From NCBI GenBank assembly GCA_944376745.1, contig CALWDR010000173.1, positions 1 through 44,340 of the forward strand: a stretch of 44,340 nucleotides of DNA. Reading direction: 5' to 3'. Each line of letters starts with the position of its first letter. The first letter of the stretch is position 1. The DNA comes from an uncultured Lachnospiraceae bacterium (lineage in GTDB: Bacteria; Bacillota; Clostridia; Lachnospirales; Lachnospiraceae). Under the pieces are notes generated by a model. That model searched no databases and was not told the DNA's origin. It was given only the letters and a program-made list of their open reading frames with translations. Of the stretch, positions 4,067 through 6,787 are shown one piece after another. Both the position numbers and the translations under genes were made by a program.

Positions 4067-4708
4067 ATGAGGCAGTATACAAAAATGTCTCCGCTGACGG
4101 AGGACGAACGGGATTTTGCGGAAAAGAACCATGCGGCTGTGCTCTGGTTTATTAAGTCCTATGAGTTGGATTTTGATGATTACTATGACGTTGCCGTGAT
4201 GGGATACCTGAAGGCGGTCAAGAAGTGGTTTGAACGCCCGGATATCCACCGGTACAGCTTTTTAAAAATCGCAAAAAACTGTATGCGCAGCTATGTCGGA
4301 TGTGAGCAGCGCAAGCGGGCCCGGGAGATCCCGACCATGAGCCTTGATGAGGTTGTTCCGGGAACGGATGGCCTGACCTATGCGGATACCATCACATGCG
4401 ATAATTTGATTTTTACAGATTGGAGGAATGGGAAGGAAATGCAGATCAGATATAATGTGCAGCTTCCGGAGAAGCCTAACCATAGGGTATGCGCGAAGAG
4501 CGACGAGAGGATTGCCATTGAAGCATTTCTTATCGGGAAGATGCGGAATATGTGTTTTGAGTATGAGACAGTCATTGAGGCAAAGAAAAAGCTGTCCTCC
4601 ATCAGAAGCACGAGAAGAAACAAGGGTGAGGAGGATATTTATGACGCCTGGCGGAAGGATAACTGCATTTATATAGAGCGCTTGCCGCTTAAGAAAGAAA
4701 GGGGATGA
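4067..4708 (+). CDS. Phage sigma-factor-like protein
   Basis: A 213-residue protein whose N-terminal 90 residues follow sigma-70 region 2: a YDVAVMGYLKAVKKWF segment (the region 2.1-2.2 core) then HRYSFLKIAKNCMRSYV. An SLDEVV segment next resembles the linker of sigma factors. The C-terminal half is not a clear region 4, so it may be a divergent or partial sigma factor, or an unrelated protein borrowing the fold. It starts 20 bases after the upstream gene and overlaps the HNH gene by four bases (ATGA), suggesting translational coupling. It may redirect host polymerase, but no matching phage promoters were identified. Confidence 0.6.
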   Translation: MRQYTKMSPLTEDERDFAEKNHAAVLWFIKSYELDFDDYYDVAVMGYLKAVKKWFERPDIHRYSFLKIAKNCMRSYVGCEQRKRAREIPTMSLDEVVPGTDGLTYADTITCDNLIFTDWRNGKEMQIRYNVQLPEKPNHRVCAKSDERIAIEAFLIGKMRNMCFEYETVIEAKKKLSSIRSTRRNKGEEDIYDAWRKDNCIYIERLPLKKERG

Positions 4709-5388
4709 TGGACTTGATGATAAAATGCGCAGTTTGTGGGAAGGAATTTCACGCAAAACCGTCAGCCGTCAAAAACGGGAAAAAGTATTGCAGCAAGGAA
4801 TGTTACGATAAATTTCAGTTCAAGGGCGAAATCAAAGCATGTGCGACATGCGGAAAGGAAATAAGGGTGGCTCCATCGAACATCCGGGAAAGGAATTTCT
4901 GCTCGAATGAGTGCCGTCTGGTTTGGTTAAGTAAATATGTGACCGAGGAAATAAACGTGAAAGGGCATGCGGCTGGAGTAGGTAAAGCGGGGCATAGTGC
5001 TGGGCATAAAGCTCCACACCTAACAGAATACAATAGAACAAAAAATCCTATGAATCAACCAGATTCGGAACAGCGGCGAGAATGCTATAAGAAAACCCCG
5101 GAGGAACTTCACCAAATAAGAGTGGGAGCAGCGTTAAAGAAAAACGGTGGAAGGTATAAGAAAGATACCTACAAAAAAATTGGAAACAGGCATGAACATA
5201 GAGTTGTTGCCGAAGCAAAACTTGGTCGCAGGCTTCAGCCCGGTGAGGTGGTCCATCACATTGACGGGAATAAGCGCAATAATAATCCGGAAAACTTGAT
5301 GGTATTTGCAAACCAAGCCTTACATTCACAATGGCATGCGAAACACGACAATTATTTGCATAAAGGAGGTGGTGCCAAATGTCAATAA
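4705..5388 (+). CDS. HNH endonuclease with zinc fingers
   Basis: A 227-residue homing-type endonuclease. The N-terminus has two CxxC...CSxEC zinc units (CAVCGKEF to YCSKEC, and CATCGKEI to FCSNEC). A basic linker follows, then an HNH_3 nuclease domain at residues about 165-215 with HRVVAEAKLGR, VVHHIDGNKRNNNPENL and a final H-rich segment. It probably nicks or cuts DNA at a specific site. The gene lies exactly between the split pieces of the helicase, where a homing enzyme would be expected, and its stop overlaps the start of the downstream helicase leader by ten bases. ATG at 4708 or 4717 could also be the start. Confidence 0.85.
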   Translation: MMDLMIKCAVCGKEFHAKPSAVKNGKKYCSKECYDKFQFKGEIKACATCGKEIRVAPSNIRERNFCSNECRLVWLSKYVTEEINVKGHAAGVGKAGHSAGHKAPHLTEYNRTKNPMNQPDSEQRRECYKKTPEELHQIRVGAALKKNGGRYKKDTYKKIGNRHEHRVVAEAKLGRRLQPGEVVHHIDGNKRNNNPENLMVFANQALHSQWHAKHDNYLHKGGGAKCQ

Positions 5389-5444
5389 GAGAAAACAACA
5401 CAGGGAAAAAAGCCGGTAAGGGCTTCGGTTTTCTCTTTGAATGA
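5379..5444 (+). CDS. Short leader ORF holding the helicase pre-Walker segment
   Basis: A 21-codon reading frame with AAAGGAGGT ahead of its ATG. Its last residues, GKGFGFLFE, are the residues that normally lead into the helicase Walker A motif (expected continuation MGCGKT). A TGA at 5442-5444 stops it there. That TGA overlaps the ATG at 5441 (ATGA), so ribosomes could reinitiate on the large helicase frame. It is best read as the true beginning of the downstream helicase piece, interrupted by the insertions described at 5442-5478. Confidence 0.55.
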   Translation: MSIRENNTGKKAGKGFGFLFE

Positions 5445-6787
5445 CGCCCCATAGAAATGGGGTGCGGTTGAAAACCGGAAAAACATTAACAGCAATAGCA
5501 ACGACAGGCGCAGCCTATAACATGGGAGCCATAGAAAGGGTTCTTATTATCGCTCCGACTTCAGTAGTAGCTGTATGGCCAAAAGAACTCCAGGAATTCG
5601 CTGATTTCCGCTACACCTGCCGGACCCTCCTGGGGGATAAGGACATGCGGATCCGCCAGATAGATGACCTCCTAAAATTTCCATTCCAGGCTCTGAAGGT
5701 GGCAGTGATCAATTATGAGTCCACATGGCGGGACGGTCTGTTTGAGAAGCTCCAGGAGTTTGACGCCGATATGATCATCTGCGACGAAAGCCAGCGGATC
5801 AAGACTCATGACGCGGCGCAGAGCAAGGCAGTCCATAAGCTCGGGGATCAGGCGAGGTATAAGCTGATCCTCTCCGGGACGCCGGTACAGAATAACGCGA
5901 TTGACATTTTCAGTCAATACCGATTTCTGGATCCCTCCATCTTCGGGGACAACTTCTACCAGTTCCGGAACCGCTATGCCATCATGGGCGGCTTTAATAA
6001 AAAACAGGTGGTCGGGTATAAGGACCTAGACGGGCTGATCCGAAAGGAGCACTCCATTGCTTTCCGGATCACCAAGGAGGAGGCGATTGACCTACCGGAG
6101 CAGACCTTTGAGACACGGCACATTGCCATGGACAGCAAGGAGCGGGCGCTGTATGACCGGCTCCGGCGGGACAGCTATGCAGAGCTGGACGGCGGCGGAC
6201 AGATTACGGCGACCACCGTGCTAACGAAGCTTCTCCGTCTCCAGCAGCTAACTGGTGGATTTCTGGTCAAGGATGATGCTACCAGGCCGGAACTGGTGAG
6301 CAGGTCCAAACTGGATGCCCTGGCGGACATCATTCAGGATTACGTGGTCGGGGCCGGGAAAAAGTTGGTTATCTTCGCACGGTTCCTCCCGGAGGTGAAG
6401 GCCATCATCGACCTGGCAAAAAAGGAACTGCCTGCAGGAAAGAAAGCCGTGGCCATCTACGGGGAAATCAAAAAGGAAGAACGTGGGCCCATCGTAAAGC
6501 AGTTCCAGGAGGACAAGGACACAGTGCTGTTTATCGGCCAGATTGACACTGCCGGCACGGGGATCACGCTGACGGCTGCCGATACCTGCGTGTATTACAG
6601 TAAAAATTTTAACTACGCAACCTACAGCCAGAGTTTGTCCAGAATCCACCGAATCGGTCAGCGGAACATATGCACCTATATCGATCTGGTAGTGGAAAAG
6701 ACTGTGGATGAGATCATAAGCAAAGCCCTGGCAAAAAAAGAGGATATTGCAAAGACGGTTGTGGATAACTGGAGGGATTTTTTCTGA
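5441..6787 (+). CDS. SNF2-type DEAD/DEAH helicase, C-terminal portion
   Basis: A 448-residue helicase motor. It shows GKTLTAIATTGA (end of Walker A), IICDESQRIK (motif II), LILSGTPVQN (motif III), a GTGITLTAAD segment (motif V) and SLSRIHRIGQ (motif VI), all typical of SNF2-like ATPases. The residues before GKT read RLKT rather than the expected EMGCG, because of two short insertions, so the ATP-binding loop is altered if translation starts at 5441. There is no ribosome site at 5441; coupling to the leader ORF is the likely route. It probably acts in phage DNA replication or recombination if functional. It overlaps the HAD gene by one base. Confidence 0.8.
   Translation: MTPHRNGVRLKTGKTLTAIATTGAAYNMGAIERVLIIAPTSVVAVWPKELQEFADFRYTCRTLLGDKDMRIRQIDDLLKFPFQALKVAVINYESTWRDGLFEKLQEFDADMIICDESQRIKTHDAAQSKAVHKLGDQARYKLILSGTPVQNNAIDIFSQYRFLDPSIFGDNFYQFRNRYAIMGGFNKKQVVGYKDLDGLIRKEHSIAFRITKEEAIDLPEQTFETRHIAMDSKERALYDRLRRDSYAELDGGGQITATTVLTKLLRLQQLTGGFLVKDDATRPELVSRSKLDALADIIQDYVVGAGKKLVIFARFLPEVKAIIDLAKKELPAGKKAVAIYGEIKKEERGPIVKQFQEDKDTVLFIGQIDTAGTGITLTAADTCVYYSKNFNYATYSQSLSRIHRIGQRNICTYIDLVVEKTVDEIISKALAKKEDIAKTVVDNWRDFF
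5442..5478 (+). other. Two stop-bearing hairpin insertions in Walker A codons
   Basis: After GAA (5439-5441) comes TGA, then an 8-bp hairpin CGCCCCAT (5445-5452), loop AGAA, ATGGGGTG (5457-5464). The normal codons ATG GGG TGC GGT follow at 5457-5468, then another TGA (5469-5471) and a second hairpin CGGTT/AACCG (5465-5477). The codon before each stop recurs after each gap: GAA at 5454 and GGA at 5477. Removing both gaps (15 and 11 bases) restores the family's FLFEMGCGKT motif and the reading frame. Confidence 0.65.

Follow-up and report, generated by a model that had tools for sequence, protein, structure and literature searches.

How a phage helicase gene might still encode an intact enzyme when the codons of its ATP-binding Walker A motif are twice interrupted by a stop codon and a short stretch of extra sequence is the question raised by this locus. 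The window, by which we mean the whole stretch of DNA that was analysed, is an entire 44-kb contig from a Clostridia genome assembly. Its phage genes encode a GpA-type terminase, a lambda-type portal, baseplate J, a P2-I tail protein, an integrase and a DUF927 primase-like protein, and no phage tRNA that could help decoding was found in the window. The affected gene encodes an SNF2 helicase and is itself split. The N-terminal piece (LYQHQIRAANMALLTFG; 2297-2689, + strand) was identified by tblastn against the N-part ORFs of relatives (identity of at most 75%, E 6e-57), and the C-part lies at 5379-6787. N-part and C-part are encoded by distinct genes that have unrelated genes in between, as is also the case in many relatives, so the splitting is older than the window allele; in L090 and L145 the N-part is fused to KGFGLLFEMGCGKT and the helicase parts form one gene. 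Just upstream of the C-part, an ORF of 227 aa (4705-5388, + strand) encodes an HNH homing endonuclease (Pfam HNH_3, E 5e-13; PHROG HNH families) and stops 53 nt short of the last base of the first take-off codon, described below. Both this HNH gene and the helicase split were missed by the initial annotation.

The start of the C-part ORF, MSIRENNTGKKAGKGFGFLFE (5379-5441, + strand), has a ribosome-binding site, AAAGGAGGTGGTG, upstream, and its KGFGxLFE peptide is conserved in close relatives. The peptide closes with GAA (Glu, 5439-5441, + strand), the first putative take-off codon, which is followed by TGA (5442-5444), CGCCCCATA and a GAA landing codon (5454-5456); together these 15 nt form the first gap (TGACGCCCCATAGAA; 5442-5456, + strand). 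The coding sequence then continues as ATG GGG TGC (5457-5465) and GGT (5466-5468), giving MGCG (5457-5468, + strand), with GGT as second take-off codon. The second gap (TGAAAACCGGA; 5469-5479, + strand) is 11 nt long and consists of TGA (5469-5471), AAACC and the landing codon GGA (5477-5479), beyond which AAA ACA follows. At both gaps TGA comes directly after the take-off codon, and the take-off and landing pairs are GAA-GAA and GGT-GGA. An 8-bp hairpin with one G-U pair, CGCCCCAU-AGAA-AUGGGGUG (5445-5464, + strand; fold z -2.29), holds the first landing GAA inside its loop. The remainder of the gene, from the Walker A lysine to the stop (5480-6787, + strand), matches Pfam SNF2-rel_dom (8e-30) and Helicase_C. 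This stop-plus-hairpin layout at 5439-5479 is letter for letter what the initial annotation had described, and removal of 15 and 11 nt does restore FLFEMGCGKT, as it had claimed. Since intact relatives read KGFGxLFEMGCGKT, the predicted joined product equals the family consensus. Simple ORF finding places the helicase at 5441-6787, and its product would then be MTPHRNGVRLKTGKT, with a defective Walker A.

Relatives were gathered by helicase-anchored searches plus pattern scans. The initial annotation had suggested comparing the site in close relatives, and that comparison found the same motif interrupted by many different gaps: 52 distinct loci were interrupted, with more than 40 different gaps of 4-44 nt that are not all independent events, and 114 were intact, both counts including manually added loci of the distant clade. 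The intact sequence is KGFG(L/F)LFEMGCGKT. Every gap lies within one small group of Walker A codons and follows either E, MG or MGCG, three positions in all; interruption of the same codons in 52 distinct loci excludes chance. With slashes marking the limits of the gap, examples are GAA/TGAA/ATG (L010), GAG/TAGCGCCTAACTCGAG/ATG (L011), GGT/TAGGC/AAG (L009, L065, L112, L118, L153 and L172), GGC/TGATAGGGT/TGC (L054), CAA/TGACCAA/GGA (L162), GGT/TGAGGA/AAA (L167), GGT/TGACCCGGT/ACA (L303, about 49% identity) and a 44-nt gap running from GGT to GGT (L015). Two gaps per gene were seen in the window, L091 and L150. In the distant-clade loci L304, L315, L317, L407 and L413, the TGA stop, the 8-nt length and the AGC/AGT landing are kept and the two middle bases vary. 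A search of open-licence papers found no published report of this interrupted-helicase family.

The gaps share a grammar, which was scored on 37 distinct gaps (15 at the Glu site and 22 at the Gly site), each positioned to restore the consensus protein. Pattern scans need a stop-like codon or preset landing letters, and the loci that they contributed are therefore biased towards stops; one such set does not enter the landing statistics, and a second figure that omits the remaining ones is also given. Thirty-three of the 37 gaps begin with a stop (TAG 18, TGA 14, TAA 1), or 31/35 after dropping two gaps found only through stop-containing patterns. The other four begin with CCA, AGA or, twice, GAA, and count against the mobile bypass cassette proposed below. 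Landing codons follow the take-off site, with GAR landings in 9/15 Glu-site and 0/22 Gly-site gaps (p 4e-5) and GGN landings in 15/22 Gly-site and 1/15 Glu-site gaps (p 2e-4). Take-off and landing codons are synonymous or identical in 24/37. Landings are often synonymous without being identical (GGT-GGC, GGT-GGA, GAA-GAG), and a simple tandem duplication was rejected as the origin of the matched codons for this reason. Also counted against are the non-synonymous landings at six of 15 Glu-site gaps (GTT twice, GTA, GAC, GAT, GGG) and the non-matching ones at seven of 22 Gly-site gaps (AGC/AGT, GAC or CGC, mostly AGC/AGT). The Glu-site gaps TAGTT, TAGTA and TAGCCGTT of L046, L050, L080, L102 and L137 resemble TAGAA and TAGCCGAA with AA replaced, and their GTT/GTA landings do not match Glu. 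Tandem stops (TGATAG) occur inside two gaps. In the 23 gaps that are 7 nt or longer, C comes directly after the stop 19 times (p 1e-8); a stop followed by C is a weak termination context.

RNA structure varies among the alleles. In L015, where GGU-UGA and the landing GGU are separated over 44 nt, a 16-bp hairpin spans take-off codon and stop (z -4.8). The take-off stem-loop of the window is moderate (z -2.3), those of L091 and L150 are similar but weaker, and L011 has none. Most gaps are without a hairpin, which was counted against the cassette, and those of 4-5 nt are too short to form one, so structure is no general requirement. A group I intron, self-splicing or other RNA element was rejected, as there was no Rfam match at gathering score (a sub-threshold snoRNA match had E 0.67) and gaps are as short as 4 nt.

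Interrupted alleles are strongly associated with homing endonucleases. An intact endonuclease gene was located just upstream of 22/52 interrupted and 1/114 intact alleles (p 3e-12). Among close relatives, searched with queries trimmed of the upstream neighbour gene, an HNH ORF with its end 35-57 nt upstream of the last LFE base is present in 16/39 interrupted and 0/98 intact alleles, and four further interrupted alleles retain HNH C-terminal remnants. A scan with HNH alignment A2 returned mostly unrelated HNH loci. In about half of the interrupted alleles no endonuclease can be recognised nearby today, which counts against the cassette. HNH subtype, assigned by eye, tracks gap position (8/9 vs 0/8, p 4e-4): the C-terminal motif HW..AKE goes with the Glu site in 8/8 cases and HPEESG with the Gly site in 8/9. 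Beside the gapped allele GAA TAGAA ATG, L187:9633-10376 encodes a GIY-YIG/NUMOD3 endonuclease, not HNH, and appears to represent a second endonuclease family in the same niche. L302 (G677:C47), which alone among the intact Walker A alleles has an HNH gene beside it, was also counted against the cassette; its conserved Glu codon has become GAT (Asp), and resistance here was perhaps acquired via substitution rather than a gap.

Close pairs of occupied and empty alleles are otherwise near-identical, with the HNH gene and the gap as the difference. L192 and L076, for example, are 97-100% identical on both sides and differ by the HNH gene, the 5' peptide (71% identity) and the gap, at which the divergence ends. 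The same co-conversion pattern, divergence local to the gap and near-identity beyond, was found in L005/L109, L046/L040, L137/L130, L192/L076 and L020/L017, and donor-like synonymous differences are limited to the surroundings of the gap. In counts that rest on FastTree topology, interrupted status requires 27 changes on the tree, at least 21 of them on supported branches, and endonuclease and gap occurred together in about 8/8 informative independent sister pairs (median p 0.008). Shuffled labels give only slightly more changes than the real ones, so that the lifetime of some alleles may be brief; this was counted against the cassette. Taken from sequence comparison, the evidence indicates that putative bypass gaps beside homing endonucleases arose independently dozens of times, in many phages of gut Clostridia.

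Judged by dN/dS, the interrupted helicase genes are under strong purifying selection. Between gap-sharing alleles the ratio was 0.015 (L112-L153), 0.045 (L112-L118) and 0.053 (L054-L058), and for the window and L005 it was 0.027 with dS close to saturation. Frame breaks elsewhere in the helicase gene were absent from all tree loci except L172, an isolate genome with a break near residue 132; in another isolate genome, L171, the helicase has an internal deletion. These values of 0.015-0.05 and the otherwise open frames argue against the gaps being endonuclease repair scars that inactivate the helicase, leaving pseudogenes or tolerated losses. Such scars would fit the position of the gaps at a presumed cleavage site beside endonuclease genes, the quasi-palindromic nature of some and the close intact relatives of many interrupted alleles, but a stop-first layout with a matching landing codon is not expected from random scars, and the truly decaying copy L316, with plain nonsense and an altered Walker A (EMWCGKS), looks different. 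We therefore regard this explanation as very unlikely. The initial annotation had considered quasi-palindrome insertions that leave a damaged enzyme; the insertions may partly explain the origin of some gaps, as ATGGGG recurs in reverse complement within the window gap, but the damaged enzyme does not account for the gene's continued selection. The annotation's other concern, a sequencing or assembly error, would be natural where many sources are metagenome assemblies and has been largely refuted: identical alleles recur across different assemblies and genera (L005-L008; L137 and L180), and gaps are present in assemblies that are unrelated to one another, among them a single-contig genome (L304, G734), which makes such an error scarcely credible.

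Termination followed by re-initiation at a nearby AUG, which would yield a helicase starting from MGCGKT at Glu sites or from the ATG at 5441 in the window, is also unlikely, if less so than repair scars. An in-frame AUG does lie right after the gap in most Glu-site alleles, the window has an ATGA overlap, and non-matching landings such as GAA TAGTT ATG would be accounted for. However, from the last stop up to the lysine of Walker A, the 3' frame of nearly all Gly-site alleles contains no ATG, GTG or TTG (a single TTG in L005 would not give GCGKT), so no Walker A could be made there or in double-gap alleles, and the window product MTPHRNGVRLKTGKT would lose GCGKT. The upstream GFGxLFE peptide is moreover conserved at the protein level with synonymous changes, and landing codons track the take-off codon. 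The MGCGKT AUG does follow soon after the gap in most of the six non-synonymous Glu-site cases, so re-initiation may serve some Glu-site alleles with non-matching landings. Other forms of recoding were also weighed, as 4-nt gaps, GAA UGA A AUG and GAA UGA C AUG among them, look like sites of +1 frameshifting at UGA C. Gap lengths, up to 44 nt and with tandem stops included, fall in every mod-3 class (17/11/9 among the 37 gaps), which excludes plain readthrough or one direction of +1/-1 frameshifting, and either process would add extra residues to Walker A; we give such recoding slightly less weight than repair scars.

Very probably, then, the window carries at this site an allele of an endonuclease-plus-bypass cassette that is mobile and recurs in Clostridia phages, with a gap that ribosomes are predicted to hop. 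Translational bypassing, as read from the window in the initial annotation, gains support from dozens of gaps of the same grammar at one site, from purifying selection, from the lack of an alternative start in most Gly-site alleles and from the linked endonuclease. Two elements would make up the cassette: a homing endonuclease gene that stands on its own, generally of HNH and in one case of GIY-YIG type, immediately ahead of the C-part of the split SNF2 helicase, and, a little further downstream, a short non-coding gap or a pair of them within the Walker A codons. We infer that the endonuclease recognizes the Walker A sequence and that the gap probably marks and destroys this target, so that the carrier is protected. 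The ribosome may pause at a stop that terminates poorly and in most cases has C after it; peptidyl-tRNA-Glu or -Gly would then detach, the mRNA would slide, and the tRNA would re-pair at a landing codon that is synonymous or near-cognate, after which translation would resume with GCGKT intact. Endonuclease-linked gaps would thus abolish cleavage of an invariant motif, and selection may keep only those gaps that ribosomes can hop. On the wider scale, a widespread arms race among Clostridia phages is likely, in which homing endonucleases attacking Walker A would be blocked by dozens of independently evolved, bypassed micro-gaps, with stop-hops of 4-16 nt needing minimal signals and allowing functional enzyme levels. 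On this reading, ORF callers misannotate gapped helicases as truncated genes.

Phage T4 gene 60 has so far been the main bacterial-virus case of efficient bypassing, and a review of the subject remarks that counterparts have long been presumed and that few stand up. As with T4 gene 60 and mobA, an HNH homing endonuclease is linked to a split DNA-metabolism gene, and the T4 gap is regarded as a protection against that endonuclease (PMC5009743). In both, a non-coding gap comes right after a Gly take-off codon, with a stop first and a matching landing; the gene 60 record reads GGA/TAGCC...GGA, with C after the stop as in most longer helicase gaps, and a take-off hairpin is shared with L015. Unlike gene 60, the helicase gaps sit in an SNF2 helicase, are mostly 4-16 nt, use Glu as well as Gly take-offs and are sometimes two per gene, and there is large allele diversity instead of one allele. 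The helicase alleles are without the 46-aa leader with its KKYK signal: in the window, no T4-like nascent-peptide signal was found about 30 residues before take-off, and the leader is only 21 aa. The helicase gaps are for this reason classed as working like the gene 60 system and not as members of it. The family offers dozens of natural replicates in which gap length, stop, take-off and landing vary, with intact sister alleles too, so that both the idea of endonuclease protection and the rules by which ribosomes take off and land become testable.

Synthetic stop-hops (PMC5009743) are similar in being short hops over a stop between matched codons, as in GGT TGA GGA of L167, but the helicase gaps are natural, at a conserved motif and linked to a mobile element. 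The byp elements of Magnusiomyces capitatus mitochondria are likewise many short inserts in coding sequence, apparently bypassed and with imperfectly matched landings (PMC5009743); there the A-site codon is an unused sense codon and many genes are affected, whereas the helicase gaps have stops (33/37) and one motif. Intronless homing by free-standing HNH or GIY-YIG endonucleases provides the same arrangement of an endonuclease beside its putative target, occupied and empty alleles and co-conversion tracts (PMC2988022). Here too the endonuclease ORF adjoins its putative target and empty alleles are without the endonuclease, but resistance would come with a bypassed gap within the coding sequence.
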